Shown here: positions 1,144 through 40,383 of the stretch, in pieces
Layout of the letters: the number at the start of each line of letters is the position of its first letter
Numbering within the stretch: the stretch's first letter is position 1
Origin: a virus
Virus record (IMG/VR): IMGVR_UViG_3300033148_005265
Span: 1-40,383 of that record
DNA: 40,383 bases
Direction: 5' to 3' (one strand)
Program-made: the position numbers and the translations under genes
Notes under the pieces: generated by a model
Database searches by the model: none
Told to the model about the DNA's origin: nothing
The model's input: the letters and a program-made list of their open reading frames with translations, nothing else

Positions 1144-1659
1144 ATGGCCGCACTGAAGAATATTTTCGTGCATTGCTCTGCAACACCATGGGGTGAGTCG
1201 CTTATATTCGAGGATTGGCATAAAGCGCGTGGGTGGTCTGGGATTGGGTACCATTATACTGTTTTGAACGGACGCCCGTTTTCGGATGTTGAATACATCC
1301 CGTTTTTGGATGGCCAGATTCAGCCAGGAAGACACCTTGACGATGACCCGATCTTTTCTCGGGACGAACGTGGGGCACACGTTGCTGGGCGCAACCACGA
1401 CTCGATCGGAATTTGCTTGGTAGGGCGCAAAGGGTTTACAGATGCGCAGCTTGTTGTGTCCAAACGTTTGCTATTGTTTTTGCTTCATCAATTTGGGCTA
1501 ACTATAGCTGATGTGCTTGGGCATTATGAAGATCCAAACACCGATAAGAGTTGTCCGAATATCCCAATGACTGTATTTCGGGAATACCTTGAAGATAAGG
1601 TTGAATTAACAGCGTTGCAGTACGAAATCGATGATTACATTAAGGGAATATACGGATGA
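1144..1659 (+). CDS. N-acetylmuramoyl-L-alanine amidase (T7 lysozyme type endolysin)
   Basis: This 171-aa protein is an Amidase_2 family enzyme, predicted to cut the amide bond between N-acetylmuramic acid and L-alanine in peptidoglycan. The zinc ligands of T7 lysozyme can be matched to H10 (VHCSATP), H127 (GHYE) and C137, and the catalytic Tyr and Lys to Y36 (GIGYHY) and K135 (DKSCP). GAHV and the following IGI strand fit the family. Its length is close to the single-domain T7 enzyme (~151 aa), with no separate wall-binding domain and no signal peptide. Export would therefore need a holin, which I do not recognise here. The ATG at 1144 has a TAGGTGA ribosome site just upstream. The stop overlaps the next start as ATGA, suggesting translational coupling. 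It could act in lysis or, less likely, as a structural lysin. Confidence 0.92.
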   Translation: MAALKNIFVHCSATPWGESLIFEDWHKARGWSGIGYHYTVLNGRPFSDVEYIPFLDGQIQPGRHLDDDPIFSRDERGAHVAGRNHDSIGICLVGRKGFTDAQLVVSKRLLLFLLHQFGLTIADVLGHYEDPNTDKSCPNIPMTVFREYLEDKVELTALQYEIDDYIKGIYG

Positions 1660-2336
1660 CTTTACCCGAAGGTTCCTTCGATAAGTTTTGGAATGATGTA
1701 GTTGTTCGAAACTTCCCAAAAGCTAAGATACGTTACAAGGATGAATCTTGGTTATTCAAGCACGTTTTGAAGTATGTGTTCTTCTTCAAGAAGACATTCA
1801 TGACAACCTTCACTACTGTTATTGGGAATACGATTTATTTCCCTTCAAGGGGTTGGCGCAGCAATCGGTCTGATAAAAAAACTATAGCTACCGTAGCACA
1901 TGAAATGATCCATATGTGGGATAAGCGTGCAGATAAAAAGTTTGGTATTGACTGGTTTTCTCTTCGATATTTATTGCCACAAGGGCTCGTGATCTTTAGC
2001 CTTTTAGCATTGTTTGCTTTCATTAACCTGTGGTTCCTACTATTCCTGTGGGCACTTTTGTTTCTGATTCCGTGGCCTGCGAATTACCGATCAGAGTACG
2101 AGGCGCGGGGCTATGCGATGTCGTTCTATTGCTGGGGGTTAAACAGCGGAGAGCAGTATAATGTAGAGGAGGATATCGCCTGGGCTGTTGGCATCTTCAC
2201 AGACGGGAGCTATTACTGGATGAACTGGGGGCCTGCAAACGCGCGTAGAATCCTTGAAAAGCATTACGAAACGTTACCGAAAACGCACGCAGCATTCAAA
2301 GAGGTTGGAGAATGGCTAAAGACCCAGCAAACTTAA
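1656..2336 (+). CDS. Membrane protein with HEXXH zinc-metallopeptidase motif
   Basis: This 226-aa protein has no name I can assign. Residues 80-88 read VAHEMIHMW, the HEXXH signature in which two histidines bind zinc and the glutamate is catalytic. Residues 106-141 are very hydrophobic and probably form one long or two short transmembrane segments. A SEYEARGYA segment just after them (E147/E149) could supply the third zinc ligand, as in gluzincin-type peptidases. The N-terminal ~60 residues are basic and aromatic. The start overlaps the amidase stop by 4 bp and the end overlaps the nuclease start by 25 bp, so it belongs to a coupled group. Possible roles are cleavage of a membrane or envelope protein during lysis or infection. 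The peptidase activity is inferred only from the motif. Confidence 0.7.
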   Translation: MTLPEGSFDKFWNDVVVRNFPKAKIRYKDESWLFKHVLKYVFFFKKTFMTTFTTVIGNTIYFPSRGWRSNRSDKKTIATVAHEMIHMWDKRADKKFGIDWFSLRYLLPQGLVIFSLLALFAFINLWFLLFLWALLFLIPWPANYRSEYEARGYAMSFYCWGLNSGEQYNVEEDIAWAVGIFTDGSYYWMNWGPANARRILEKHYETLPKTHAAFKEVGEWLKTQQT

Positions 2337-3103
2337 CATTATCCCCGTCTAAGGTAGACACATTTAACGGATGTAGACGTCTTTTTCGGTATAGGTATAT
2401 TGACCCCCCCTTCGCTACTCCAGATAACAAATACTTCCTAATCGGTAACATTGCGCATAAGGTGCTTGAAGATCTACATAAAAAGCAAATGAACAATGGG
2501 AATATGGATTGGAAGAAAGATATTCGTACATTCTTCAAGCAAGCAGTTCGTACATACAACGCGTTTGCTAAGGTTAAGTCTGGCTTGATTCAACGGTCTG
2601 ACCTGTTCGCAATCAAGGGGATGATGAAAAACTACTTGGTTTACCTAGCTAAGCTAGGTGAGGCACCTAATGTTGCTCAGGTAGAAAAGCTTGCTAAGAT
2701 TGTAATTGGGGATGTGGTTGTTTGGCTAAAAGCCGACCGCATTGATAGGCTTTCGGATGGTGTATACAAGGTTATTGATTACAAATCAGGGAAGCCCGCA
2801 TCAAAGAAAGCAGAACTTACATCTGTACAAATTCCTTCATATGGTATATGGTTACATCAGGCGTTCGATGACGTGGAGGAGATCTTCGGAGAATACTTGT
2901 ATTTGAAGCATGTGAATACCAAAACTGGTGTCCATACGCACGCAATTACTGAGGAATTAATGGATCAGACCCGAGATACCTACCGCCGTGTCGATCGGGA
3001 GCTTAAGAAAGGCTGCGATTTCGTGCAGAATTTCAAGTATAAGTACTGTTATTTTTGTGATTTCAAAGTACACTGTTTGGAGGATGATAATGATGGCCTT
3101 TAG
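2312..3103 (+). CDS. PD-(D/E)XK nuclease with Cas4/AddB-like cysteine cluster
   Basis: This 263-aa protein has the layout of the RecB/Cas4/AddB branch of PD-(D/E)XK nucleases. LSPSKVDTFNGC near the N-terminus contains C21. H49 in GNIAH fits the usual motif I histidine. ADRIDRL carries the metal-binding D142 or D145, IDYKSGK has the D-x-K pair (D156, K158), and VQIPSY fits the Q-x3-Y motif. Cysteines C246, C249 and C255 at the C-terminus, together with C21, match the four-cysteine arrangement that binds a 4Fe-4S cluster in Cas4 and AddB. It is probably a DNA exonuclease or single-strand end-processing enzyme for phage recombination or DNA maturation. The ATG follows an AGAGG site. The gene overlaps both neighbours. 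Confidence 0.85.
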   Translation: MAKDPANLTLSPSKVDTFNGCRRLFRYRYIDPPFATPDNKYFLIGNIAHKVLEDLHKKQMNNGNMDWKKDIRTFFKQAVRTYNAFAKVKSGLIQRSDLFAIKGMMKNYLVYLAKLGEAPNVAQVEKLAKIVIGDVVVWLKADRIDRLSDGVYKVIDYKSGKPASKKAELTSVQIPSYGIWLHQAFDDVEEIFGEYLYLKHVNTKTGVHTHAITEELMDQTRDTYRRVDRELKKGCDFVQNFKYKYCYFCDFKVHCLEDDNDGL

Positions 3104-11337: not shown

Positions 11338-11682
11338 ATGAGTGTTAAGTACTATGAATGGGGCGTGGCTAAGGGTGGTTCGACCCCAGGCGGTGGTGGT
11401 TCAGCCCCTGCTGATGCTGCGTTTGGTCCTCCGGAGCAATTTGGTGGCGTAGCGGTTGTTGCCCCTACTACAATCACGTTTACACGTGATACAAAATGGG
11501 TGCACGTTATTAACTCTGACGTTGAATTTGATCTAGAAGTAAGCTTAGATGGTGGTGCTAATTACATTTCTCTTAGCTCTGGAAGCGAATTACAAGAAGC
11601 AGCGCAAGTAGCTTCGCTTCTTGTTCGCGGTAATGCTGCAGGCACTGACTATGAAATTTCTGCTGGCCTAACCGCAGCGTAA
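11338..11682 (+). CDS. Small virion-type protein with Gly-rich linker
   Basis: This 114-aa protein starts with a short aromatic segment (MSVKYYEWGVAKGG), then a Gly/Ser/Ala/Pro linker and a beta-sandwich-like C-terminal ~80 residues with ITFTRDTKWVHVINSDVEFDLEVSLDGGANYISL. Such domains occur as minor capsid or tail decoration modules. The ATG at 11338 follows TTGGAG. A longer frame reaching back to 11227 overlaps the preceding gene and is rejected. It has no signal peptide, unlike the genes that follow. Confidence 0.6.
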   Translation: MSVKYYEWGVAKGGSTPGGGGSAPADAAFGPPEQFGGVAVVAPTTITFTRDTKWVHVINSDVEFDLEVSLDGGANYISLSSGSELQEAAQVASLLVRGNAAGTDYEISAGLTAA

Positions 11683-11692
11683 AGGGTAAATC

Positions 11693-12844
11693 ATGAAAAA
11701 AGCAATATCGCTATTCGTTGCGCTGTTGGTTTTACTAATTACTGTCCCTGCTTGGTCTGCGGGCGATGTGCAAATTAGGGACAGAAACAGTAACGACAAA
11801 GCAGACGTTGCCCAGCAAAACACGGACAATGTTGCCGCTACTATTTACGGTTTAGTTGTTGGTTCCTATTTGCATGGGTATGACGGAACTACCTGGGACA
11901 GGCTTACCGTTGGTGCAAACGATTCCGATGATGTGCCGTCCACTACGCAGGGATTGGATGTACGTTCGTTTGGCTACATGTGGGACACGGTAAACGATGA
12001 CTGGGATCGGATGACCGGGTTTGAGATCAAACTGTCTGCGAAAGACATGTTTGCATTGCTCGTATATAACGCAAATTTGTTTATGGTAGGGGATACATGG
12101 CAAGAGTGGATTGGCGCACCCATGGACGCTGACAATGTATCAGAAAATACAGACGCCCCTTGGGTTGGCTCATTTTTATATGGGCATGATGGTACAGCCT
12201 GGGACCGTTTAACTACTACTGAATCCGGTGATGCATTAAGCGCTACTATTCCTGGGCTAACTACTGTAAGCATGAATCACTTTTACGACGGCACCAATTT
12301 TAGACGTTGGCAAGGTATCACCATGGCCGACAATCTTACCTACCCAACTGCTCCATTTGTAGGTGCTGTGTTGCTGGGTGATGACGGTGGCACACTTGAT
12401 ATGGTGAAGCTGGGGGCTGTTGGTGAAGTAGAAATGACAGATGTAGCAACTCGCCCAGGTGAAGACGCTGGTGCGGGATTGCGGCACATTTCTAAGAAAG
12501 ACATAGCAGTTTATACACCAGCCAAGACTACAACTGCTGCTATTGGTACTGCACCAGTGCTTGTTTTGGCAAGTACTGAAGTGATGACTCTTCCAAATTG
12601 GTGTATTTATCTTCAAAACGATGACGGAGCAGATCCGTTTGTAGATGCTGATGTACAGGTTAGTCCGGATGGAACGTCTGCGTGGGCACCGCTGACTTGG
12701 ACTGCTTGTGATAGCCTTGCTGCTACCGAGACATGTGTTTATTGTGTTACCGGCTCTGGATATAGATACGTCAGAGTATATGTTAACGCAGCAGATGCTA
12801 ATGATGTAGACGTAGATGCATGGCTCACTGCAAATAAGGGGTAA
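11693..12844 (+). CDS. Exported repeat protein with YDGTTWDRL-type units
   Basis: This 383-aa protein begins with a textbook Sec signal peptide: MKK, a hydrophobic core of ~15 residues, then PAWSA with probable cleavage after A23. The mature part has repeats around YDGTTWDRL (residue ~63), WDTVNDDWDRMTG, HDGTAWDRLTTT and YDGTNFRRWQG. Units like this are common in phage and prophage virion proteins, where they form short beta modules. The C-terminal ~110 residues form another beta domain containing all four cysteines (NWC, TAC, TETCVYC). This is the first of seven consecutive genes with exported or membrane-anchored N-termini. Whether the product reaches the particle or leaves the cell cannot be told from sequence. 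Confidence 0.7.
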   Translation: MKKAISLFVALLVLLITVPAWSAGDVQIRDRNSNDKADVAQQNTDNVAATIYGLVVGSYLHGYDGTTWDRLTVGANDSDDVPSTTQGLDVRSFGYMWDTVNDDWDRMTGFEIKLSAKDMFALLVYNANLFMVGDTWQEWIGAPMDADNVSENTDAPWVGSFLYGHDGTAWDRLTTTESGDALSATIPGLTTVSMNHFYDGTNFRRWQGITMADNLTYPTAPFVGAVLLGDDGGTLDMVKLGAVGEVEMTDVATRPGEDAGAGLRHISKKDIAVYTPAKTTTAAIGTAPVLVLASTEVMTLPNWCIYLQNDDGADPFVDADVQVSPDGTSAWAPLTWTACDSLAATETCVYCVTGSGYRYVRVYVNAADANDVDVDAWLTANKG

Positions 12845-12847
12845 CCC

Positions 12848-13156
12848 TTGAAAAAACTATTGATAGCACTTGGGGTCTTCCTCGTTCTATCTTCACTCGC
12901 AAATGCCACCTCCTTTGAAGGTGGCGTTGTGATTGTAGGTAGCGGGACAAAGTGTGACGAACCGGGGAAAGAGTCTAGCAATGCTGTGCGCTGGGGATTA
13001 GCAACAGAAAACGGCACAGTTATTTTTCCTGCAGACATGGACTGTTATAAAGATAGTGGTGGAGGCGGATTGACTTTAGGTGTTTGGTTGGACGGTGTTG
13101 TAACAATAACCGGAAACAACGAATGGATGGATGGCAACGCTATTTGGAGTGACTAA
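12848..13156 (+). CDS. Small exported protein
   Basis: This 102-aa protein starts with TTG at 12848, seven bases after AAGGGG. It has a clear signal peptide (MKKLLIALGVFLVLSSLANA, probable cleavage after A20). The ~80-residue mature part is Gly-rich and beta-like, with two cysteines (TKC, MDC) that could form a disulfide. It lies four bases after the previous stop and its own stop overlaps the next start in TAATG. This close coupling suggests the product works with its neighbours. No family recognised. Confidence 0.65.
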   Translation: MKKLLIALGVFLVLSSLANATSFEGGVVIVGSGTKCDEPGKESSNAVRWGLATENGTVIFPADMDCYKDSGGGGLTLGVWLDGVVTITGNNEWMDGNAIWSD

Positions 13157-15441
13157 TGAAAAAATTGATCCTGTTATTGTCCTGCCTGTTGCTAACGCCT
13201 GCTTACGCGTTTGCTGATGATTGTGTCTCGGATGCGACTGGAGATTGGGATGCGGCTGGTAGTTGGACCGCTTGTGGTGGTGGGTTCCCAGAAGAAGGGG
13301 ACACCGCTGAGATTTTAGCCGCCCACACAATCACCGTGAAAGGAACCGAAGCGGTCGGCACATCGCCTGCCGATTACACCACCGATATTCTCAAGATTGG
13401 TGGCACCCTTGTATTTGAAAACGCTGCCGCCGATTCTATATTGAATGTCTTCGGGAGCATCATCATTCAAACCACTGGCAAACTCGAAATGGGAACGTTG
13501 GCGGCCCCGATGAACTGTGGTGGTTCTGCCAGGTTGACGATGAAGACAGATGTACAAAACCAAAACTACGATTTCCTAATGCAGAATGGCGCACAAATTG
13601 AAGCGCATGGCTGCATGACTTATCATGGCTCGACCCCCGCACTAACCAGAGCACGGATTGTGTCTTGTGCTCCAGACTGTACCGCTGGTGCTGTTGTAGT
13701 AACGTTGGACCAAACACATGGTTGGGCTGCTTCTACCGGTTGGGCTGGAGATGGGATCATTTTCGGTGTAGGTGGTAACGAAACAACGAAACATGCTGCC
13801 GGTGACGATCCTGAAATAATCACGACCTGGGCGACACCGGGTGCGGATACGATTGGCGTCACGTTTGTCGAGGATCACATGGCCGGTGACATGGTAGAAA
13901 TAGTGCGGCGTAATGTGGTCATCGATTCAGACGACTCGACAAATCATGGGCGGATTTACACAGAGACTTTTGTTGCTGCCAAGCCGTATTCATTGAGCTA
14001 TATAATGATCAACGAGATGGGCTGGTCTACATCTCAGAACCAAGCTTCCATCAACGCGGTAGACGCTGATCAGAACATGGGGTCGATGGACTACGTTGCG
14101 ATCACGAACGCTGAAGACGGGTCTTCTGTGACGTGTTTCTATATCAATGCAAGTTGGGACAGTTTCGAAGGAAATACATGCTGGGACTCGCGGGGCAACT
14201 CGTACACTATGGCATTAGACTCACGGACAGACACCCCGATTCTGGAGTTCAAAAATTGTTCTGCCTATGGCTCTGCGAATGGGCAAGCCTACGGGATCGC
14301 AAGTACCACGACGCAATCTATGGATCTTGAAGGATTCTGGTCGTCACACAACAATGTCGGGATGAGCCTCGTCAACTGGAACGGTTGGGGCGATGTCCAT
14401 AATTGTGTGATCCACGGTGCGACTGGCGATGGTGTATCAATGCTTCAGGTGACATCCTATTTCGGGAACGAAGCCCAGAAGTTTCACGACAACGAAGTCA
14501 GAAATTCGGGATCCGACAATTTACAGATCGCGTCTCACAACTATATCATCAAGGACAATAATTTCGATGGCGCATATGCTGGGTGCATCAACATGCAACA
14601 GGGTAGCGGTTATCCACCATTCATTTATATGTCAGGCAACACCTACGACAATTGTAATACTGTAGGTAGCGCTATCTACGGTGCTATAATTATGGCGTTG
14701 TACAGCGGTCATGTCTATATGAACAACGAGGAGTTTGGCCAGGATACGGCGAATAAAGATACTAATTTCTCTTTGAGCACTACCCAACTTGGGAGCAGTT
14801 CGAACCACTTGACTGTCGTTTGTAACAATTGTCTGATGGCCGATCCCATAGACACAGTTCCTTGCTCTAATATGCCAATTGATGGGTATCAACCAGTCGG
14901 TTGCTCGAACGTATCTGCGGCCACTTGGTCAGACATCGTGTGGATTTCAGAAGGAAGCTCGATGACGTTCCACAATAAGGATCAGGTAGAAGACGCACAT
15001 ATTGGCTGGGGTCCAGGTGGGATGGTGTTCCAGCGGCAGACCGGTGTTGTTTACACGACCAGCAACCTAAAGATGAAGATCACACCAGCTAGCTCGACCG
15101 CCTATAGCTACATCAAAGTAGGTACTGTAGCGGTGGAAAATGGAGACGCTCTTGAAGTTGATTTGTATCTCCGTAAGGACGAGGCTGTGACCGGTGCCGG
15201 GTGGAGGCCGCGCCTAGTGATTGAAGGTTGCGGGTTCGAACGGACTGTGGACTACGATGAGATGAGCGACGTGACGGATACTTGGGAAAAAGTTACTGTG
15301 AGCGGTACGGCAGATTGGAAGGGTGGAGTACACATATATGTAGGCGTTAGAGGTGTGTCCAACCCGGCAGCGAATGCCTATACTCCTGTATGGCCACCTA
15401 CCCTGGACGTATATGCTGATGGATTAGAGATTACAAAGTAG
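13156..15441 (+). CDS. Exported Cys-rich G8-like / beta-helix protein, copy 1
   Basis: This 761-aa protein has a signal peptide (MKKLILLLSCLLLTPAYAFA, probable cleavage after A20). Residues ~28-64 (GDWDAAGSW, FPEEGDTAEI, HTITV) match the G8-type beta pattern found at the start of large extracellular beta-helix proteins. Residues ~65-560 show short repeating strands and Asn turns of a right-handed beta-helix. From ~600 there is a carbohydrate-binding-like beta-sandwich (NLKMKITPASSTAYSYIKV). I count 17 cysteines, far more than in the cytoplasmic tail proteins here, which suits disulfide formation after export. A close paralog begins at 39448. A role as receptor-binding or polysaccharide-degrading protein is possible, but no catalytic residues are identified. 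Confidence 0.72.
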   Translation: MKKLILLLSCLLLTPAYAFADDCVSDATGDWDAAGSWTACGGGFPEEGDTAEILAAHTITVKGTEAVGTSPADYTTDILKIGGTLVFENAAADSILNVFGSIIIQTTGKLEMGTLAAPMNCGGSARLTMKTDVQNQNYDFLMQNGAQIEAHGCMTYHGSTPALTRARIVSCAPDCTAGAVVVTLDQTHGWAASTGWAGDGIIFGVGGNETTKHAAGDDPEIITTWATPGADTIGVTFVEDHMAGDMVEIVRRNVVIDSDDSTNHGRIYTETFVAAKPYSLSYIMINEMGWSTSQNQASINAVDADQNMGSMDYVAITNAEDGSSVTCFYINASWDSFEGNTCWDSRGNSYTMALDSRTDTPILEFKNCSAYGSANGQAYGIASTTTQSMDLEGFWSSHNNVGMSLVNWNGWGDVHNCVIHGATGDGVSMLQVTSYFGNEAQKFHDNEVRNSGSDNLQIASHNYIIKDNNFDGAYAGCINMQQGSGYPPFIYMSGNTYDNCNTVGSAIYGAIIMALYSGHVYMNNEEFGQDTANKDTNFSLSTTQLGSSSNHLTVVCNNCLMADPIDTVPCSNMPIDGYQPVGCSNVSAATWSDIVWISEGSSMTFHNKDQVEDAHIGWGPGGMVFQRQTGVVYTTSNLKMKITPASSTAYSYIKVGTVAVENGDALEVDLYLRKDEAVTGAGWRPRLVIEGCGFERTVDYDEMSDVTDTWEKVTVSGTADWKGGVHIYVGVRGVSNPAANAYTPVWPPTLDVYADGLEITK

Positions 15442-15449
15442 AGGTAAAA

Positions 15450-16718
15450 ATGAAAAATAAACTACCTTGGATATTGTTTTTTTCGTTATTCTTGATGGGC
15501 GCGTCCCTAGAGAATGGTAATCTAATTTTGGACTCGGCTACTGATCCTACCATAAGACATATACCAAAATTCGTTGGTGAGATTTGGTTTGTGAATGGGG
15601 CGGTAGCTGCTAGTGGTGACGGTAAGTCGCCAGACGCCGCGTTCAAGACGATCACCGAAGCTACTGATGCGTCTGGCGTTGGTGACGCGATTACCGTTGC
15701 TGCATCGACCTACGTTGAAAACGTAGTCATGTCCAAAAATTATGTAGAACTATGGACTGAGATCGGCACTATAATTGACCCAGCAGCAAACGTTGGGATA
15801 ACGGTATCCGGCAATGCGTGTAGAGTAAGGGGGGAAGTAAAGGTTACTCCTAATGCCGCAGTCGGTGTGTTGGTGACTGGCAATGAATGTGTCTTGAGTG
15901 ATGTCAAAGTTTTTGGTGGGACAGACAGTTTTCATATCACCGGGTCTGGTACGCTCCTGAACCGTTGTGCCGCAGGATTCCCTTCCATTGGAAATAGTGG
16001 ATATAATATCCAGGGGGCGCAGTCTCGACTCAATGATTGCTCCACTGTGGGGAACACAGATACATACGGCTACCGTATAAATAATGAGGTCGATACCGGT
16101 GTGTTGCGTAATTGTACTTCTGTAGGACATGCAGAGTCTGGGTTCTACATTGACACTCTCTCTACCGATTGGACGCTGTTGAATTGTTCATCCGGTGCTG
16201 GTGATGGGAAGTGGCGTGATATAGATAATGCGAATGTTTGGAGTAATTTTTCTTACGATAATGTATTGTACGCACACAGTAGTTTCAATGGTGCTACTTC
16301 ATATAATATATTCAAAATCACTGGTGCAGTCCGTATATATAATATTCATGGGCATGTCGACGAAGCTACCCCTGCAACCAATTCGGATATCAACTTAGAA
16401 TTGATTTCGGGTGGTGATGCAATAAATATCACAGATCATATCGGCGCTCCGGACATTGTAAGTCGTGTAGCAGGTACAATATTGACCCGAGAGGAACCAG
16501 CTACCGAACCTTTATTAATAGGAGAACCAGATGGTGTGCCAGCGGTTGTGGAATCAGCAAATTATCGAGATCCAAAGACACCGATTATTTTAATAGAAGA
16601 CGATGCCGCTGACACCTATATTGTGGTGGTTCTTTCCGTTGCAGTTGCAAGCGGTGATATACACTGGCATATCGAATGGGAACCTGTCACTAATGAAGGA
16701 TTCATAGAGGCGTTGTAA
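15450..16718 (+). CDS. Exported beta-helix (pectate-lyase-like) protein
   Basis: This 422-aa protein starts with MKNKLPWILFFSLFLMGAS, a probable signal peptide with cleavage near residue 18-19. Residues ~45-100 (FVNGAVAASGDGKSPDAAFKTITEATD, then DAITVAASTYVENVVM) match the N-terminal turns of pectate-lyase-like and DUF1565-type right-handed beta-helices common in tailspikes. Repeated coils with regularly placed Cys and Asn follow to ~270 (LNRC, LNDC, LRNC, LNC), a ladder-like placement. The C-terminal ~110 residues form a different, Ig-like beta domain. The ATG follows GAGG. It may be a surface-binding protein. The enzymatic role is unproven. Confidence 0.65.
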   Translation: MKNKLPWILFFSLFLMGASLENGNLILDSATDPTIRHIPKFVGEIWFVNGAVAASGDGKSPDAAFKTITEATDASGVGDAITVAASTYVENVVMSKNYVELWTEIGTIIDPAANVGITVSGNACRVRGEVKVTPNAAVGVLVTGNECVLSDVKVFGGTDSFHITGSGTLLNRCAAGFPSIGNSGYNIQGAQSRLNDCSTVGNTDTYGYRINNEVDTGVLRNCTSVGHAESGFYIDTLSTDWTLLNCSSGAGDGKWRDIDNANVWSNFSYDNVLYAHSSFNGATSYNIFKITGAVRIYNIHGHVDEATPATNSDINLELISGGDAINITDHIGAPDIVSRVAGTILTREEPATEPLLIGEPDGVPAVVESANYRDPKTPIILIEDDAADTYIVVVLSVAVASGDIHWHIEWEPVTNEGFIEAL

Positions 16719-16727
16719 GGAGATAAA

Positions 16728-17483
16728 ATGTCTAAGGGCGTAATTGCAGGTTTGGGCGCAGTAGTTTTAGCTGCTGGTGGAATAACAGCGGGTCTTCTAT
16801 CCGGCGATATAGAATCTATTACAGATGGTGGCTTAGATGGTCAAGTACAAGAAATTGAAGCGACTCCTATTTTCGAGCATCAAGTTTTGCAGCGGGGCTT
16901 TGTTGCTGGCAATGGTCGTGCCGTACGCGTGGTTGGCGTTTCGACCGGACGGCGAATCGAAGATGTCGAGCCTGGACGACTGGTGATCGTAGACGAGTTG
17001 CCAGATGACGCTATATGTCCTGCCGTATTCTCCGCTCCGTTGAAAAAGGTAGACGGTGAAGTTTGGCCAAACACACCCACCATGGACCAGTATTTTGAGA
17101 AAAGTGGATTCAGGCCAGTCCCTATGCCCAGGTCTAAGCAGGGCAATAACTATGTGTGGCACGGGTATGTGTTGGGACAGGAAGCCTGTGAGTCAATTTC
17201 AAAATACGGCAACTTCTATGGTAGTTCGATGAAGGAGTTCTTAGCACTTCCAATGCCGATGCAACGTAGGTTTTTGGTCACTGATGGAACATGCAAGAAT
17301 GAAGAAGGTAAAGACTACACATGCAAGGTGCCTGTTGGAGACAAGGATGCAATTCCTGGGGCTCCAATTAGTTTCCCACATTCTCTTGCAGGCAGAGTGG
17401 ATATAAACTTTGTGGTCGCAGTTGATGGTGGTCCTGTTGATAGATACCAGACTCCAGATGGCGGTTTTGCTACGGGTGAATAA
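16728..17483 (+). CDS. Membrane-anchored or exported protein of unknown function
   Basis: This 251-aa protein has an N-terminal hydrophobic Gly/Ala-rich segment (residues ~4-25) that could be a signal anchor or a poorly cleaved signal peptide. The rest is soluble, with four cysteines (AIC, EAC, GTC, YTC), proline-rich loops and a repeated VV-strand pattern (AVRVVGVSTGRRIEDVEPGRLVIVDEL). I do not recognise a family. AAGGAG lies before the ATG. Its position inside the exported block, with cysteines in the soluble part, suggests that part faces the periplasm or outside. Confidence 0.6.
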   Translation: MSKGVIAGLGAVVLAAGGITAGLLSGDIESITDGGLDGQVQEIEATPIFEHQVLQRGFVAGNGRAVRVVGVSTGRRIEDVEPGRLVIVDELPDDAICPAVFSAPLKKVDGEVWPNTPTMDQYFEKSGFRPVPMPRSKQGNNYVWHGYVLGQEACESISKYGNFYGSSMKEFLALPMPMQRRFLVTDGTCKNEEGKDYTCKVPVGDKDAIPGAPISFPHSLAGRVDINFVVAVDGGPVDRYQTPDGGFATGE

Positions 17484-17484
17484 C

Positions 17485-20400
17485 ATGCGCTTCATTACAT
17501 TTTTGATAGTTACACTGTTTAGTCTACCTGTTTTTGCTGGTGGGTTTACTGCACCATGGCGGGGTGTGGGCGGGACTTGCAATCATGAACTAGGTGGACC
17601 ACGGACGATCTTGGAATACTGTGCCCAGCGCGATGGTGCAGAAGATCTGGAAGACCGGAGCGGGTCGAATCTTGTTGTGCAGTCTGAAGACTTCGGTACT
17701 ACTTGGACAGCAGCGCGTGTAACGGTATCCACCGATCAGGTGAAAAATCCGATCAACGGTAGTCTCGATGCAGACGTTATTTCTGAAGATGGTACAGCGG
17801 CAAACAGTCATATAGTTTATCAGGGCGTCGATCTTGTTGATGGTGATTCGTATTCAGTAAGCATGTATATTCGTGCCAGTAATCGCCAGTGGATTTTTGC
17901 ATATATCACGACAGAAAATACTGGTTTGTATTGCAACGCAGCTACCGGTGTTGCCGGTAATACCAATGGAACACTTATCGGTTCGGGTGTAGAACAAATA
18001 GATCCATTGTGGGTGCGATGTTGGTTTTCATTTAAAGCGACAGCAACAGCAACAAGAACATTGCAGACTTTTGTTGCCGAGGCTAACGGAGATATTACAT
18101 TCGACGGCTTGAGTCAGACCAGTTTATATCTGTGGGGTGCTCAGGTGCGTCAGTGCAGTTCTGCTTCTGAGTGCAACGGGCCGGGCAAGTACCTCAAGAC
18201 CGAAGCCAACAACAAGCCCGTGCTGGACCTGGCCGACACTAACGATCCGACCAACGAAGCCGTTGGACCTGTATTAGATAATGGTAATAGGCAGACGGTG
18301 CAAACTTTCGATGGCACCAACTATTTCAGCCACGCGCACGACGACGCGATGAACGTGAACGACAGCGACCACACATACACGTTTTTGGCACGGCTTTCCA
18401 CCACCGCTACAGACAGCAACATAGTTTTTTCGCACGGGGGATTCCGGTTGAGCGGGATGTATTTCTACGAATCGCTTGCGACCGACACTTGGGTTGCAAA
18501 CTATCAAAAGGCTGCAGCAAGCATAAGCGTGGTAGTAACTCCAGGCTATGCGCTCAACGATGGGCATTGGCATGTTGGTCAGATCATTCGCCGAGGTAAC
18601 ATTGCTGTGTTTTGCCTTGATGGTGTTTGTGGCCTTCCAGTCAATGTTTCTACTTATGGGATTGATGGCGATCAGTCAATCTATATTGGGCGCAACGCGG
18701 ATGGAAACCATCGAGAGGGTTCCATAGCCTATCTCCGCATAGACGCCAAAGCCCAGTCGCCCTGGAAGCTGGCTTATGATCTGGCGTACCTGCGCGGTGT
18801 AGCTTCAAGTCTTGGCAATCCTGGCGCGGTGAATGTGATCGTAGATGGAGACATGGAAGCGGCTGAAGATGTGATCGTTGACGGCGACATGGAAGCTGTT
18901 GGCGTAGCGGCGTGGACGGTTGCGGGAGCCACGGTAACTAAGGAAACAAACTCTATCAAGGTTGGGTTTGGGATGTTCGCGCCAGTCTACTGGTTTAATG
19001 CTTATGACGGCCAATGCTTGGCCATGGCTGCGAACGGTGTGCAATACGGTACGGCAAGCCAAACGATTTTGACTATTGGGCGGACTTATCATGCCACGGG
19101 CGTTGCTTACGCAGTGACGGATGCGGGATTGCACGTGCCCGATATAGTCGATGGGGTCAACGTGTTGTGGACCGGTGCATGGTCTTCGACGTGGCAACCT
19201 TTTGACGTTGAATTTGTGGCCACCACCACCACGCTGGATTTTAGGGCTTCGGCATTCATCCCGACCATCGGAGCGGTGTTGTTTGACGATGTGATCGTCA
19301 TGGACAAGACGGCTGAGACTATCGCGTGGACGCCGATTAATGACGCCATTCTCTCCAAAGTGACGGTCGGACACCATCAGGGCAAGCGAGCGTTGCGGAA
19401 TGCGTTCGATGGCACCTCCAACCCGGTCGCCAGGCAGAATGCTATGACGGAAGGTTATACGTATCGTGTGACTGGATTTGCACGTGGAGATGGTGGCATC
19501 GGTATTCCTGAACTTCGATTTGGTGCGCTTCAAACTGTTTGGACGGGTACGAATTCAACTGACTGGCAGGCGTTTGATGTGACGGCGGTTTGCATGAATC
19601 CCAACTTCCAGTTGTACACCCTGGCAAATAATGCGGCCTGGACCGAGTGGGACGATATTGTATTGCGCGAGTACAGCAGGACCATCGGCACCTTCACGCG
19701 CTCGACCGTTGGAACTTTAGAAACGCCGCAAGGATTAATGGATATAGCCGCTGGCAACCCGAGAGTGGCTGACGGGTTCTTGATCGAGGCGCAGGCGACG
19801 AATATAGAAGATTATTCTGAAAACTTTGCTGGTGCGTGGTCAAAACTTAGAGCGACAGTTCCTAGCTGCACCGAACTAGATCCTAAAGGTGGTGCTCTCG
19901 CGTGTATCATTCACGAGGATGCGACAGCAGCCAGCACACACTATATAAATAATTCTTTCACGGCAGTCAGTGGCACGGCATATACTTGTTCAGTGCATGT
20001 AAAATCGGAAAACAGGAATTGGGTAAGAATTGCGTTAGGTGGTGGTGGTGGTTCTATTTTCAATGAAAGTAGATTTTTCAATGTTTTATCTGGCGTAGTT
20101 GGTGGTTGGGTTGGTGCTGATCCTGATTCTTACGGGATGGAACCAGTCGGCAATGGTTTCTATAGGGTTTGGGTTAGCGAAGAAGCTGACGATGATGGGA
20201 CTGGATATTGTTTTATTTACATTGGCGAAGCTGATGTAGATAATACATTCGATGGGTTAGACCAAGATAGTTTAATTGTATATGGTGCTCAGTTGGAAGT
20301 TGGTCTTTTCCCTACTAGTTACATTTCAACGAACGGCTCTCAAGTCACCCGCACCGCAGACAGTTATAACATTGACCCACACCCAGAAGTAGGTGAACGA

Positions 20401-20898
20401 TTGTTGCCGCAGTCGTTTGATGAAAGTGGTGTGCTGACTATCCAATTCGATCTTAAATGTCAGTGGACAGATTCATCCGACATGGGAATTCTTAGAAGAC
20501 TCATGGGTGTGAGTGGTGATACTGGAACGGCAAGTGCTACTAGAAATAGAATTGGGATATATGTGCAAAGCTGGGGTGCAATTTATAGCGTGCTTTATGG
20601 TGACGATGGTGTGTCGTATTTTGCTATCACTTTGTCTAATGACGTTAGCCTAAACACATGGACAAGAATAAAAACAAAGTTTGATTTTTCGGATCTTAGT
20701 TCATTAGATGTTTGGATAGCACAACCGCCCGAGGCAGAGTTAGTGGCTAAGGGAGTTTCATTCACCGCAACTTCTGGAACTGCGGATTTTGATTCCACTG
20801 ATACGCGGATACGCGTTGGGCAGTCGAATACAGGTGGAAATTCAGGGACTGCAAACTGCCAATTCAAAAATATACGCATAGAGCCGAGGGCTTTCTAA
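17485..20898 (+). CDS. Large exported modular protein: CBM-like and LamG-like domains
   Basis: This 1137-aa protein has a signal peptide (MRFITFLIVTLFSLPVFA, cleavage after A18). The order of modules is: a carbohydrate-binding-like domain at 60-222 (LVVQSEDFGTTW ... LYLWGAQVRQC); a LamG/concanavalin-like domain at ~262-440 (QTFDGTNYF ... IYIGRNADG); a tandem VIVDGDMEA repeat at 449-473; two CBM-like units to ~765 (YRVTGFARGDG); a second LVVQSEDF-type domain at ~795-985 ending in YGAQLEVGLFPTSYIST, a phrase usual in phage fibre proteins; and a C-terminal LamG-like domain. About 16 cysteines. The ATG at 17485 is chosen because it opens the signal peptide; a GTG at 17410 lies inside the previous gene. 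It is probably a glycan-binding adhesin or fibre. Confidence 0.7.
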   Translation: MRFITFLIVTLFSLPVFAGGFTAPWRGVGGTCNHELGGPRTILEYCAQRDGAEDLEDRSGSNLVVQSEDFGTTWTAARVTVSTDQVKNPINGSLDADVISEDGTAANSHIVYQGVDLVDGDSYSVSMYIRASNRQWIFAYITTENTGLYCNAATGVAGNTNGTLIGSGVEQIDPLWVRCWFSFKATATATRTLQTFVAEANGDITFDGLSQTSLYLWGAQVRQCSSASECNGPGKYLKTEANNKPVLDLADTNDPTNEAVGPVLDNGNRQTVQTFDGTNYFSHAHDDAMNVNDSDHTYTFLARLSTTATDSNIVFSHGGFRLSGMYFYESLATDTWVANYQKAAASISVVVTPGYALNDGHWHVGQIIRRGNIAVFCLDGVCGLPVNVSTYGIDGDQSIYIGRNADGNHREGSIAYLRIDAKAQSPWKLAYDLAYLRGVASSLGNPGAVNVIVDGDMEAAEDVIVDGDMEAVGVAAWTVAGATVTKETNSIKVGFGMFAPVYWFNAYDGQCLAMAANGVQYGTASQTILTIGRTYHATGVAYAVTDAGLHVPDIVDGVNVLWTGAWSSTWQPFDVEFVATTTTLDFRASAFIPTIGAVLFDDVIVMDKTAETIAWTPINDAILSKVTVGHHQGKRALRNAFDGTSNPVARQNAMTEGYTYRVTGFARGDGGIGIPELRFGALQTVWTGTNSTDWQAFDVTAVCMNPNFQLYTLANNAAWTEWDDIVLREYSRTIGTFTRSTVGTLETPQGLMDIAAGNPRVADGFLIEAQATNIEDYSENFAGAWSKLRATVPSCTELDPKGGALACIIHEDATAASTHYINNSFTAVSGTAYTCSVHVKSENRNWVRIALGGGGGSIFNESRFFNVLSGVVGGWVGADPDSYGMEPVGNGFYRVWVSEEADDDGTGYCFIYIGEADVDNTFDGLDQDSLIVYGAQLEVGLFPTSYISTNGSQVTRTADSYNIDPHPEVGERLLPQSFDESGVLTIQFDLKCQWTDSSDMGILRRLMGVSGDTGTASATRNRIGIYVQSWGAIYSVLYGDDGVSYFAITLSNDVSLNTWTRIKTKFDFSDLSSLDVWIAQPPEAELVAKGVSFTATSGTADFDSTDTRIRVGQSNTGGNSGTANCQFKNIRIEPRAF
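18835..18906 (+). repeat. 36-bp imperfect tandem repeat coding VIVDGDMEA
   Basis: Two 36-bp units begin GTGATCGTAGATGGAGACAT (18835) and GTGATCGTTGACGGCGACAT (18871). The same coding phrase returns once in the next gene near 21211, pointing to module shuffling between the two genes. Confidence 0.8.
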
Positions 20899-23853
20899 AT
20901 GAACAAACACAACAAATTAGGCGTAGCACTCCTAGCTGCTCTTGCGTTCATACTACTTATTATTTACCCAAAAGTATCCTGGGGTGAAGATCTATACGGG
21001 AAAGCAGACTGGTCAAAACGAGATGCCTTTCCGCAAGATGGTAAGTGTTTAGATTTTACTGGTGGTGCGCCTTATGGGGACATGCTTGGTGGTTCAGGCG
21101 ATTTTGAAGGACCATGGACAGGTGCCGAGGGTGGGTGTACGAACTGTCCTACTGATTGGACGTGTGCGTGTACCCCAAATTCAGATATAGACCGAGAAGG
21201 ATTGACTGATGTAATTGTAGACGGAGACATGGAAGCCGCTGGGACTGCTGCGTACACCGCTGGAGCAAGTGCAACACTTACTAAATCTACGGCTAAGCCA
21301 CATAGTGGATCGCAAGCTTTACGCATCGCATACAATGGTACAAGCAACCCATATGCGCTTCAGACCATACTAACTAATGGCGTGAGCTACCGTGTTACTG
21401 GTTGGGCAAGAGGCGATGGGACGCGTGTGCCCGTATTATATCAGGTAATTGGTGGGGCATACTGGACTGGAACAAGCGCAACCACATGGCAATATTTTGA
21501 TTTGGAGGTTGTTGCATCAGATAATATTTTCTATATGTTTACTGTAACTCCCGTAGCTGGATGGGTCGAATTTGATGATGTGCAGGTTCTAGAGATTCGG
21601 CCTAATGTTTACAAGGGCAACGTTGCTGTACAGTTCTCGATAGACGCAGCAGTTAATAATGTACTTTTGGACAGCCCAGCACTTTCACTTGAACAAAATA
21701 CTGCATACCAACTTACACATGTGGCTAAGGGCTCTGCCGCTGGGGACGATTTTTACATTATTGTAGATTGCAATGCGGGTGCTGCAGCAAGATACTATGT
21801 TGCTGCTACTGATTCTTGGCAAGCAGGATTTGCAGGGACCGTATACTACTCAAACATTGGGACCACTTGGATAACACGAACTGTATACATAAAAACTGCC
21901 GTCGATGATTATTCTAACTGCACACTTAGATTTGTTAGGTCTACTGCATCTCAGATTTTTTACCTTGATGATGTGCAGATCAAGAAGCTGCGCCGCACAG
22001 GTCCGGTGTTCAGCACGCAAGAGCAGATGACCTACGAATTAGACGCCGACCCGACTTGGAATTGCGATAGATTAATTGGTTGCTCAATGGCGTTCGATGG
22101 TACTGTTGATTTTGTAGAACGGGACGATGATGGAACATTTGACCCAGTAAACAATAGTGGAAGTTTTAGTGTTGGGGTGAGACTTAAAACTAAAGACGTA
22201 ACACAAGCAAACCAGTGGGTTTTTACAAAAGGAACCGATTGGTATTTGCATCTATCAAGCGGTAATGATGTTGCGTTAAACTGGACAGATGCTACTGGTA
22301 CTGGGGATGCTGTAAGCGTAGGAAACTTTATATCAGATAATGAATGGTTTTCAGCGGCTGCTTCGTATGGCTTTAATGGCGATACAACATCTAATGCAAC
22401 CATGCGAGCCAATAACGAAGTAGAAGGGTCTATCGTTGATGGTGAAGGTCCAGTTAGAAATAACGCATACCCACTAGGGGTTGGGGCTAGAGCAGATAAT
22501 TCTAGTAATGAACTTTATGGCTCGGTTGCACTAGCTTGTTATTGGAATAGAGAATTAGCAGCGTTAGAGCGTAACCAGTTCAACAATCCATTTTTCGGCA
22601 ATACCACGTTGGGCGATGGCTTCAGTGTTGACTTCTGTTCACAGTCAGCGACCCATGCGGTTTGCTCGCCTCAGACGTGTGTTGAGTGGAGTAGGCATAG
22701 TTGCTGGCCTGATCAGAATTATCTGCCAGAGTTTGGGCAGTACACTGAGCTTTTGGAAAACAATAGTTTTGAGACTTACACTGGAACACAGGGTAACCCT
22801 ACATTCGATGATATGTCAGTTCAGATTTGCAATTCTGGAGACGGAACTTGTTTCATTACTGCTCATTATAGTGATTCAAAATATGGCGATGTATCTGTAA
22901 AAATGGAAAAGACAGGAACTACGTCCACCGGATACATTAGATCTGCATGTCAAACAACTGGAATTGGGAATGATGTATATGGATATTTTGCGATAAAAGT
23001 TTTGAGCGGAAACCCATATATGGCAGTTCGAATGCAGCAATTTGACAATGCAAATTGCACAGCAGCGTTAGCAACTACAAATTTATCTTTCGGTGTAACC
23101 ACTAACCACAGTTGGAAAGACTATGGTGGGTTATTTGCAGCAGGCTTATGGAATGGATCAACATCTAGTTATAACATAGAAGTTGTTTTGAAAAATACAA
23201 CTGTTGGTCCTGCTAGCGTACTAATAGATAATATGTCAGGAAAGGAAGCGAGCTACCACACCCCATGGGTTCACGCGCCTGCTGGTGGTGGTGCCGTAAC
23301 TTATGTAGCCAGAAGGTATGAGTTGCACAATCCATTACTGCAAGAAAATGGCGGGGTTGCTAATTGGGAAGGTGGGTTCTGTCTTGGTGGTTGGCTGTAT
23401 TCTGATTGGGATGGAACGAATACATCTTACCGTTATATCTTCAGTGCGCCCGGTGATGCTGGAAATGATAACCGCTGGTTCGTGACCACCTCGGCAAACG
23501 GACTTTGGGTTATACACGATGCGGCTGGCGTTTCTAAAAGCAGGGTGCTCGCGCTAGACGCTACCAATTGGTCCGCAGGTTGGAAGTATGTTGAAGCTTG
23601 CACCGATAACACCGGGACCAGAGCAGCCAGGCATTACAATTCTGCGAACGATACTTGGTACGATTGGTCTGGTGATTCGGGTGGTGGGACTGGGATCCAA
23701 GACGATGCTGACACGCGTTACCAGATTGGGAACTCTAGTGGTGGTAGTTGTGCTGATGCTTATTTCTGGAACAACAAGGTTGGACCCTACAAAGCAATCT
23801 GGCCCATGTACGGCTGGGGAAACGGTCGCCCCCCTTCAGCCCCGGTATACTAA
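20899..23853 (+). CDS. Large exported modular protein: CBM-like and LamG-like domains, paralog of the upstream gene
   Basis: This 984-aa protein starts directly after the previous stop (TAA then ATG). Its N-terminus has a hydrophobic core at ~8-24 and KVSWG, which may be cut after G29 or remain as an anchor. After a Cys cluster (GCTNC, TCAC) come a CBM-like domain at ~105-235 sharing VIVDGDMEA and YRVTGWARGDG with the upstream protein, another at ~237-365, a LamG-like domain at ~390-565 (AFDGTVDFVERDDDGTF), a third CBM-like part at ~630-765 and a final LamG-like domain at ~790-960. About 20 cysteines. Glycan binding at a cell surface is the likely role. The similarity to its neighbour shows duplication with later divergence. 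Confidence 0.68.
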   Translation: MNKHNKLGVALLAALAFILLIIYPKVSWGEDLYGKADWSKRDAFPQDGKCLDFTGGAPYGDMLGGSGDFEGPWTGAEGGCTNCPTDWTCACTPNSDIDREGLTDVIVDGDMEAAGTAAYTAGASATLTKSTAKPHSGSQALRIAYNGTSNPYALQTILTNGVSYRVTGWARGDGTRVPVLYQVIGGAYWTGTSATTWQYFDLEVVASDNIFYMFTVTPVAGWVEFDDVQVLEIRPNVYKGNVAVQFSIDAAVNNVLLDSPALSLEQNTAYQLTHVAKGSAAGDDFYIIVDCNAGAAARYYVAATDSWQAGFAGTVYYSNIGTTWITRTVYIKTAVDDYSNCTLRFVRSTASQIFYLDDVQIKKLRRTGPVFSTQEQMTYELDADPTWNCDRLIGCSMAFDGTVDFVERDDDGTFDPVNNSGSFSVGVRLKTKDVTQANQWVFTKGTDWYLHLSSGNDVALNWTDATGTGDAVSVGNFISDNEWFSAAASYGFNGDTTSNATMRANNEVEGSIVDGEGPVRNNAYPLGVGARADNSSNELYGSVALACYWNRELAALERNQFNNPFFGNTTLGDGFSVDFCSQSATHAVCSPQTCVEWSRHSCWPDQNYLPEFGQYTELLENNSFETYTGTQGNPTFDDMSVQICNSGDGTCFITAHYSDSKYGDVSVKMEKTGTTSTGYIRSACQTTGIGNDVYGYFAIKVLSGNPYMAVRMQQFDNANCTAALATTNLSFGVTTNHSWKDYGGLFAAGLWNGSTSSYNIEVVLKNTTVGPASVLIDNMSGKEASYHTPWVHAPAGGGAVTYVARRYELHNPLLQENGGVANWEGGFCLGGWLYSDWDGTNTSYRYIFSAPGDAGNDNRWFVTTSANGLWVIHDAAGVSKSRVLALDATNWSAGWKYVEACTDNTGTRAARHYNSANDTWYDWSGDSGGGTGIQDDADTRYQIGNSSGGSCADAYFWNNKVGPYKAIWPMYGWGNGRPPSAPVY

Positions 23854-24072: not shown

Positions 24073-24372
24073 ATGGCAAAATACTACGTAGGCGATGTCG
24101 GGACAGAGGTTCTTGTAGACACTACAATAGACATCTCATTAGCGTCCTCCCTCATACTGAAAGTCCGCAAGCCATCGGGTGCGTTAGTAGAGTGGACGGG
24201 CCTCCTAGGGCCAGCAAACGCGCTGGGAGAGTACACCACGATCCGCTACGTAGTTGTTGCTGACGATTGGGATGAAGGCGGGATTTGGAAGCTCCAGGCG
24301 TACGTGGTGACTTCACTTTGGACCGGGCGCGGGGAAACTGTCACCTTCAAACTGGAAGAGGATTTCAACTAA
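24073..24372 (+). CDS. Small beta-sandwich virion-type protein
   Basis: This 99-aa protein (MAKYYVGDVGTEVLVDTTIDIS ... LKVRKPSGALVEWTG ... WKLQAYV) resembles small Ig-like proteins often encoded among neck, tail and baseplate genes of tailed phages, related in pattern to the N-terminal domain of baseplate upper proteins. No enzymatic motif. It starts 8 bp after the previous stop and ends 3 bp before the next start. Its exact location in the particle cannot be assigned. Confidence 0.6.
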   Translation: MAKYYVGDVGTEVLVDTTIDISLASSLILKVRKPSGALVEWTGLLGPANALGEYTTIRYVVVADDWDEGGIWKLQAYVVTSLWTGRGETVTFKLEEDFN

Positions 24373-35245: not shown

Positions 35246-35737
35246 ATGGCGCTTTTACCGGCTACGCTTGCCGCTGCTCTAATTGCAAATGTGGATAACT
35301 TTGAGACAGAGGCCCAAGCGGCTGCCGCTTGGGCAGACTCGTTTGACACGTACTTTCAGTCTGCGATGGCAGGCCCTGTTCCCGTGGTTCCATTTTCTAC
35401 GACCCTTGCGAAGGGTGATATGGAGTCCTCTCTGACGGGGATGTCTGTAGCCGGTGCTGGTGCGGCTGCCCTATTGACAGGAATCACTGCGTATTGGGCG
35501 AACCTAAGCACCAATGCCGCTACAGTGTTCCTTACGTCCACAAGCGTTACACCGCCTCCGACATTAGGAACACTTACTGCTACCTTAGAGGCAAATTTTT
35601 TGGCAAACACTAACGGAAATGTTGACAAAGTTACTGCGCTTACGCTGATTGCGAATTCAATTCATATCGCACAAACTGGTGGTATAGCTGTGTTCCCACC
35701 AACCCCTGGGGGGATCGGGCCACAAACTATACTTTAG
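35246..35737 (+). CDS. Small Ala/Thr-rich baseplate-region protein
   Basis: This 163-aa protein (MALLPATLAAALIANVDNFETEAQAAAAWADSFDTYF) belongs to a type of short, Ala-rich protein seen next to spike genes in several phages, with no function I know of. The N-terminus is helical, but the sequence has no Lys-Arg n-region or cleavage site of a signal peptide. It starts directly after the spike stop, and its stop overlaps the stop of the convergent DHH gene by 3-4 bp. Confidence 0.6.
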   Translation: MALLPATLAAALIANVDNFETEAQAAAAWADSFDTYFQSAMAGPVPVVPFSTTLAKGDMESSLTGMSVAGAGAAALLTGITAYWANLSTNAATVFLTSTSVTPPPTLGTLTATLEANFLANTNGNVDKVTALTLIANSIHIAQTGGIAVFPPTPGGIGPQTIL

Positions 35738-39447: not shown

Positions 39448-40383
39448 ATGAAAAAACTGTTACTTATTCTAGTTTGTTTGCTAATTCCAGCGTACGCGCT
39501 CGCAGATGCTTGTGTGTCAGATAATACTGGTGATTGGGATGCTCCTGCTACTTGGGCTGCTTGCGGTGGTGGATTTCCTGAGGCAGCAGATACTGCTGAA
39601 ATTTTAGTTGGCCACACAGTTACTGTCAAAGGTACTGAAGCGGTTGGTGCATCGCCAGCCAGTATAGTAACATACAATTTAGACATTACTGGAACACTGA
39701 TATTTGAAAATGCCGCTGCTGATTCTATCTTAAATGTGTACAGTTCAATCCGAGTAAATAGTGGGGGGAAAATTCAAATAGGTACGTCTGGTAGTCCAAT
39801 GAATTGTGCCGGGTCTGCTCGACTATATATGCGAACCCACGCGGCTGCTCAGAAATACAAAATTTTCCTGGATGCTGGATCAATCGAAGCACATGGTTGC
39901 TCGACCTACCATGGAACAGACGCCACGCTAACTAGAGCTAGGATCGTATCATGCGCTCCGGATTGCACCGCTGGCGCTGTGACTGTTACGCTGGATCGTA
40001 CTCATGGCTGGGCCGCTTCTACTGCTTGGGCTGGCGATGGAATTATTTTCGGTATTGGTGGTAACGAAATTACTTTGCCAGCCGTAGGTGATGACCCTGA
40101 GATAATTACGACTTGGACAACGCCGGGTGCTACGACCATCGGAGTCACGTTCACCGAGGATCACATGGCCGGTGACATTGTTGAAATTGTTCGGCGTAAC
40201 GTGTTGATTGATTCTGATAGTCCAACTTATCATCCGGCGCTTTATACAAATTGGAATTCTATTAACGATCCTTATTCGATGAGATACGTTATGGTCAATG
40301 AGTTTGGGGATTCGTATACTATACCTGCGATATCCATGGATGACGTGGCGCAAACTCTCGGAACGATGGATTACGTTGCAGTC
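39448..40383 (+). CDS. Exported Cys-rich G8-like / beta-helix protein, copy 2 (3' end cut by window edge)
   Basis: The frame is open from ATG 39448 to the last base (312 codons) and continues beyond the window. GAGG lies five bases before the ATG. The N-terminus MKKLLLILVCLLIPAYALA is a signal peptide with probable cleavage after A19. What follows is closely related to the protein at 13156: ACVSDNTGDWDAPATW, GGGFPEAADTAEIL, SILNVY, GCSTYHGTD, ARIVSCAPDCTAGAV and HGWAASTAWAGDG all have direct counterparts. By eye identity is well over half across the aligned ~310 residues. The copy sits directly after the gpJ-like gene, a place often used for tail fibre or receptor-binding genes, which hints that this family reaches the particle or its target surface. 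Confidence 0.8.
   Translation, partial: MKKLLLILVCLLIPAYALADACVSDNTGDWDAPATWAACGGGFPEAADTAEILVGHTVTVKGTEAVGASPASIVTYNLDITGTLIFENAAADSILNVYSSIRVNSGGKIQIGTSGSPMNCAGSARLYMRTHAAAQKYKIFLDAGSIEAHGCSTYHGTDATLTRARIVSCAPDCTAGAVTVTLDRTHGWAASTAWAGDGIIFGIGGNEITLPAVGDDPEIITTWTTPGATTIGVTFTEDHMAGDIVEIVRRNVLIDSDSPTYHPALYTNWNSINDPYSMRYVMVNEFGDSYTIPAISMDDVAQTLGTMDYVAV

Follow-up and report, generated by a model that had tools for sequence, protein, structure and literature searches.

The IMG/VR virus record IMGVR_UViG_3300033148_005265, a linear sequence of 40.4 kb from a contractile-tailed phage, was analysed over its whole length (hereafter, the window). Between the gene of the probable connector (10451) and the gene at 24073 lie seven genes (11693–23853), all on one strand and with intergenic gaps of −1 to 10 bp, whose products are each predicted by score to begin with a signal peptide (SP) or an anchor, as a first-pass annotation of this DNA had claimed; the case proves stronger than that annotation made it. 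Their N-termini contain a K/R-containing n-region and a hydrophobic core, mostly with small residues at −3 and −1. The SP score combined a von Heijne matrix with a hydrophobic core of 8 residues. In its calibration on 44 E. coli K-12 proteins of annotated location, exported proteins reached 7.8–19.0, cytosolic proteins stayed at or below 7.5, and proteins with N-terminal transmembrane segments scored up to 11.0. Because of this last group, the score alone cannot tell an SP from an anchor; AxA-type sites make the distinction for most of the seven, and only 16728 has the look of an anchor. The scores were 11.9 (gene 11693), 9.9 (12848), 14.8 (13156), 10.7 (15450), 6.2 (16728), 12.5 (17485) and 8.0 (20899). 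All seven genes were SP-positive; among the other genes (≥100 aa) of the window and of related phages, the figure was 7 of 318 (Fisher, 5e-11, the genes being partly non-independent), and several of these background positives are spanin- or lipoprotein-like. Features of Sec signal peptidase I substrates were found in the first ~35 residues of most of the seven and of the product of an eighth SP gene, 39448. No lipobox with Cys at the predicted +1 and no surface-anchor motif were seen in the window proteins. The possibility that the SPs are artefacts of wrong start codons was rejected: homologues back the starts, and non-SP relatives contain no hidden upstream SP.

Four of the block genes form a core that recurs elsewhere. 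The first (11693..12844, +) encodes an SP with the predicted cleavage (↓) VPAWSA↓G, YDGTTWDRL repeats and a C-terminal beta domain with 4 Cys and a weak DUF6385/F5-F8-like match; SP-bearing homologues occur in G005, G009, L055 and L059. Its AlphaFold model has a pLDDT of 44, with residues 273–383 alone fair. In a Foldseek search with this model, every PDB match exceeded 1e-3, those to Ena spore appendage pilins and to CBMs included, viral matches mostly had low TM-scores, and none was taken as evidence. The second (16728..17483, +; 251 aa) belongs to no known family, carries an N-terminal anchor or SP and 4 Cys, and serves as the cassette marker; blast detected homologues in G005, G009 and L055, an SP-bearing open reading frame lies at the matching position in L059, and the AlphaFold model (mean pLDDT 38) was useless. 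The third (17485..20898, +; ATG at 17485, 1137 aa) encodes an SP ending VFA↓G, LamG/CBM-like modules and 16 Cys, matches the tail protein family phrog_5939 (5.6e-31) and has SP-bearing homologues in G005, L055 and L059. The fourth (20899..23853, +) encodes an SP or anchor, CBM/LamG-like modules and 21 Cys; the motif GDFExWTGAEGGCTxCP is conserved near its mature N-terminus, and homologues with a hydrophobic N-terminus are present in G005, G009, L055 and L056.

The other three block genes are interspersed among these. Gene 12848 (12848..13156, +; TTG start) encodes a 102-aa SP protein (ANA↓T, 2 Cys) for which a homology search gave no relatives. Gene 13156 (13156..15441, +; AFA↓D) encodes a G8 domain, a probable beta-helix and 17 mature Cys, and is a paralogue of 39448 and a homologue of the tail-slot fibre; it is 41% identical over its full length to an SP-bearing L030 gene, and 22–24% identical to the non-SP fibres of L027 and L028. 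Gene 15450 (15450..16718, +) encodes the SP MKNKLPWILFFSLFLMGAS, a putative beta-helix and a C-terminal beta domain; it matches the virion structural family phrog_36353 (2.2e-5), and its C-terminal part is 26% identical to L012:11958, which is without an SP. The eighth SP gene (39448..40383, +; ALA↓D, score 13.8), cut by the contig end and overlooked in the first-pass annotation, occupies the tail-fibre slot directly after baseplate J, and its product shares 66% identity with the first 300 aa of 13156. Directly upstream of the block, a companion gene without an SP (11338..11682, +; 114 aa) encodes a Gly-rich linker and a small beta domain; it likewise precedes the SP genes in G005, with homologues at L043:8690-9028 (57%) and in L012/L016 (38–40%). 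This candidate spike base by position gave no PDB match, including to solved base proteins.

Recurrence and genomic setting of the core genes

The slot between the connector and gene 24073 was compared among 16 IMG/VR loci related through the connector. The order of head and tail genes is constant among them and the slot content differs: L002, L004, L012, L014 and L015 hold large non-SP genes, L006 holds one extra gene, and at L005:10001-11315 the slot is empty, with the 24073 homologue directly after the connector. The full SP block is common only to the window and L001, a near-identical strain. Since the slot varies and the SP block is otherwise found only in L001, the block fills an appendage slot in a lineage-specific way.

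The core set is found in the same order in more distant phages, with SPs kept across divergent homologues. The order 11693-16728-17485-20899 is kept in G005 and L055, and subsets occur in G009 and L059. G005 (121 kb, from the window's own phage group) carries 11338-11693-16728-17485-20899 at its far contig end, on the other strand, near ribonucleotide reductase and outside its structural genes; its connector slot itself contains non-SP genes. Three HNH endonuclease genes are inserted between the 17485 and 20899 homologues of G005 (L043:228-2840). In L055, all four core genes follow a gp23-like major capsid gene; L059 has an L055-type backbone (major capsid protein (MCP) 45% identical) and three members. 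G009 has three members and a beta-helix-like SP protein upstream of a phrog_38 terminase, and L056, with a G009 backbone (terminase 67%), has a 20899 homologue at the contig end. These are three unrelated backbones, defined by the phrog_2522 MCP (window group), the gp23-like MCP (L055/L059), and TerL phrog_38 with portal phrog_12 (G009/L056); tblastn gave no match between the latter two. Across all three, cassette homologues are 25–50% identical and keep the SP, so that this feature outlasts the sequence itself. An SP or anchor was found in 24 of the 25 cassette-family proteins scored, two further members bear an SP, and a hydrophobic N-terminus is common to all members.

When annotated phage genomes were searched with 13156, 20899, 15450, 11693 and the L055/L059 homologues, nothing matched, and thus the cassette is known from no isolate. 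Species genomes, scanned twice with the patterns used, likewise yielded no relative, and no host was found. Other SP genes were seen in these phages. L055:5995-6645 and L059:8532-9200 encode SP-bearing proteins of 216 and 222 aa, mutually ~32% identical, the former assigned to phrog_5335, a family of unknown function. A PAPS-reductase-like gene (L055:12634-13329) directly follows the SP cassette of this gp23-type phage. In the virus Rctr197k, from a methane-oxidising enrichment, a 158-aa SP gene lies between the capsid and connector genes (L022:25721-26197); this is perhaps the habit at its most minimal.

Around the block, the window encodes a portal (phrog_16240), a prohead protease, an MCP (phrog_2522, 1.5e-56), a tail sheath (26000), a tape measure protein assigned by size and position (28921) and baseplate J (38022). 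The portal-to-protease interval (1144-3103), kept in relatives, holds three genes: one is a phage exonuclease (phrog_69), and the other two we take to be amidase-like and membrane-spanning zinc-peptidase-like. A minus-strand gene (35734-36672, −), presumably with DHH-phosphoesterase-like motifs, lies within the plus-strand tail operon and has relatives at L051:1538-2473 and L052:8787-9695 (42–43%). A scan for promoters and terminators gave counts at chance level and was uninformative.

G8 fibres, cysteines and glycan-binding modules

Several domains proposed by the first-pass annotation were recovered. The G8 domain (PF10162, Pfam cut-off 22.9) was detected in 13156 (4.3e-7, 30.3 bits) and in 39448 (8.9e-7, 29.3 bits), and a LamG-like domain in 17485 (2.6e-4; 2.6e-11 in a homologue). 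The CBM-like domain is weak in the window (CBM_4_9, 0.014; 1.4e-4 in a homologue), and Pfam did not confirm the beta-helix of 15450.

The G8 protein exists with and without an SP. In G003, a G8 protein with an SP and 41% full-length identity to 13156 is encoded after baseplate J, and at the same place G002 and G005 encode G8 proteins without an SP that start at the mature residue (MVAYTSQASGDW and MTAYNSSQSGFW vs ALA↓DACVSDNTGDW). The two versions can be aligned over the whole mature sequence, beginning with its first residue, and their N-terminal region is conserved. In L027, an in-frame stop directly precedes the ATG of the non-SP gene, so no SP is concealed upstream. The presence of one fibre gene with an SP in the window and G003, and without it, from the mature N-terminus, in G002 and G005 indicates that the SP is a detachable module. 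Although the window MCP is closer to that of G002 (93%) than to that of G003 (72%), the window fibre is nearer to the G003 fibre; the SP-bearing allele has therefore, judging from these identities, probably been exchanged between phages. The locus offers a natural experiment on the purpose of export in related phages.

The Cys counts of the first-pass annotation hold: mature 13156, 17485 and 20899 contain 17, 16 and 21 Cys, versus 2 in the sheath, 0 in the tape measure and 1 in the gpJ-like protein. Overall, Cys makes up 1.75% of the block and 0.31% of 14 other virion-module proteins. Its proposed tie to export fared less evenly. Among SP homologues, Cys residues are kept at 75% for 13156 (43% identity), 100% for 11693 (nearest homologue, 51%) and 100% for 16728 (41%; all 4 window Cys are retained in G005), and at 52% and 50% for 20899 and 17485 (37–40%); the SP homologues of the first three genes span 41–66% identity. 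Non-SP pairs keep 23–34% at 30–32% identity. However, as the first-pass annotation had not noted, the slot and fibre proteins without an SP in relatives contain 0.4–1.4% Cys (one, 3.5%), and non-SP G8 fibre orthologues contain 12–15 Cys. Because these non-SP fibres are also Cys-rich, a general rule that export causes Cys-richness was rejected. The conservation in several SP families is consistent with disulfides in the exported proteins but does not prove that they form.

Residues 764–962 of 17485 match the RcGTA head-spike fibre Rcc01080 (PDB 6tb9; 1.4e-17, profile 5.7e-18), whose binding target is the capsule of the host (PMC7296036, PMC10218006). This homology supports predicted glycan binding by 17485, and the LamG/CBM-like and G8 modules do so to a lesser degree for the others. 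Pfam found no catalytic glycosidase domain.

Possible roles of the putative exported proteins

Conserved SPs and gene order support export well, so this half of the first-pass proposal of an exported glycan-binding set stands; its other half finds support for 17485 and less for the remaining proteins. From these sequence features, infected cells would probably export a set of sugar-binding proteins; their function, like actual export, disulfides, virion independence and masking, is what we infer. Tailed virions are held to assemble entirely in the cytoplasm, and to our knowledge the export of such a set is not known for tailed phages. Phage genomes are seldom rich in SPs, with 0–2 per genome in five rumen phages (PMC5723332), and we found no description of such a cassette in the open-licence literature.

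We tentatively favour a portable, Sec-exported glycan-binding cassette that would act outside the virion, most likely by masking host glycans. In the window phage, the cassette proteins would be made together with the late gene products, exported via the host Sec pathway and, probably, disulfide-bonded in the periplasm. The exported complex would then act independently of the virion and occupy envelope or capsular glycans, such that neither competing phages nor the progeny of the phage itself would adsorb to the dying cell or to its debris. A virion-independent complex is favoured since the core passes from one backbone to other, unrelated ones and leaves the structural cluster in G005. Moreover, cells given purified pb5, the T5 receptor-binding protein, are protected from T5 infection (PMC9586334); free binders can thus mask receptors.

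Several observations weigh against this reading. The window set sits in a late structural operon, which is less suited to early exclusion, and the tail-slot SP copies (39448 and that of G003) occupy the place of presumed virion fibres in relatives. The window copies of 16728 and 20899 lack a clean cleavage site, the G009 homologue of 20899 falls below the SP threshold, and 16728, 20899 and the G009 beta-helix protein could be membrane anchors. In addition, the G005 copy is at a contig end, and the cassette is known from six phage contigs, all uncultivated.

A less likely explanation is that export serves folding and is followed by docking: head spikes or side fibres would form disulfides in the periplasm and join finished particles at lysis, much as T4 tail fibres can add to finished particles in mixed lysates. 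The position of the G8 protein in the tail-fibre slot, the N-terminal region shared by its two versions as if docking were kept, the head-spike fibre homology of 17485, the location of the set beside head genes in the window and L055, and the high Cys conservation in several SP families all agree with this. Docking sits oddly, however, with a core set that passes between virions of unrelated types and is encoded away from the structural cluster in G005, and close relatives' Cys-rich non-SP fibres manage without export. Masking and docking both leave the export claim intact. It is possible that a mobile multi-gene cassette, common to tailed phages that are otherwise unrelated, turns fibre- or spike-type glycan binders into a Sec-exported complex that acts as a secreted glycan mask or, where the fibre genes are concerned, as virion appendages matured outside the cytoplasm.

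More doubtful is an exported adhesive, matrix-modifying or cell-sticking set, possibly anchored in the envelope via 16728, that would aggregate cells, retain virions or free them from polysaccharide. The LamG, CBM-like and G8 modules and the anchor-like 16728 N-terminus in the window and G005 would suit it, and the detachable RcGTA tailspike TspA is a phage-like precedent for an off-particle appendage (PMC13420450); the lack of a Pfam-detectable glycosidase domain and of a lipobox or surface-anchor motif in the window proteins speaks against it. We consider it very improbable that the hydrophobic N-termini are virion plugs, like the peptide IALGLGLGL by which the RcGTA head fibre, a homologue of 17485, enters its spike base (PMC7296036). 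The Gly/Ala-rich hydrophobic N-terminus of 16728 in the window and G005 would suit such a plug, but cleavable SPs are clearly recognisable in the 16728 homologues of G009 (ASVASA↓Q) and L059 (SSA↓Q), and most members show basic n-regions, core mean hydropathies mostly of ~2.6–3.9 and AxA-type ends; the non-SP G8 orthologues that start at the mature residue and the L027 stop argue likewise. Least credible are functionless leftovers of captured host genes: secreted proteins of cells can likewise contain LamG, CBM and G8 domains, but the SPs are kept at 25–50% identity in three backbones, the species-genome collection held no relatives with the patterns used, and the 17485 domains are widespread in non-SP phage tail proteins.

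Comparison with known systems

The conservation, in three or more phage groups unrelated to each other, of fibre-like glycan binders predicted to be exported suggests an extracellular infection programme of receptor masking, debris control or outside appendage maturation. If true, a secreted mask or outside-matured appendages would be a mode of action undescribed for tailed phages in the open-licence literature searched. The nearest functional parallels are Llp of T5 and Cor of T1-like phages, phage-encoded exported receptor blockers, with llp adjoining the receptor-binding protein gene (PMC9586334). Llp and Cor are lipoproteins of small size whose target is a protein receptor, whereas the cassette is multi-gene and its products are fibre-like, non-lipoprotein and large (six of the seven block proteins exceed 250 aa). 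TspA of RcGTA is an appendage whose action on extracellular polysaccharide takes place away from the particle; it is reported to attach loosely to the baseplate, with no signal peptide mentioned (PMC13420450), and, unlike for the cassette proteins, enzyme activity has been shown for it.

Tail-fibre-type proteins of the phrog_5939/'MSLLDDASLVLIPSGYK' kind share modules 55–220 and 735–965 of 17485. Among 58 viral loci with 17485 relatives, however, SPs are present in the 3 cassette loci only and in 0 of the 55 others, which encode tail-fibre-type proteins. Rcc01080 of RcGTA is, as predicted for 17485, a glycan (capsule)-binding appendage; 17485 carries a homologous module, and its gene adjoins head genes. 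By contrast, 17485 combines several modules in 1137 aa with an SP and travels with three other proteins predicted to be exported, and in place of the RcGTA-type N-terminal plug for a pentameric base, which has no SP, it and its cassette homologues have SP-type N-termini. By its predicted architecture, 17485 is a relative of one module of the RcGTA head-spike fibre rather than a member of that family.

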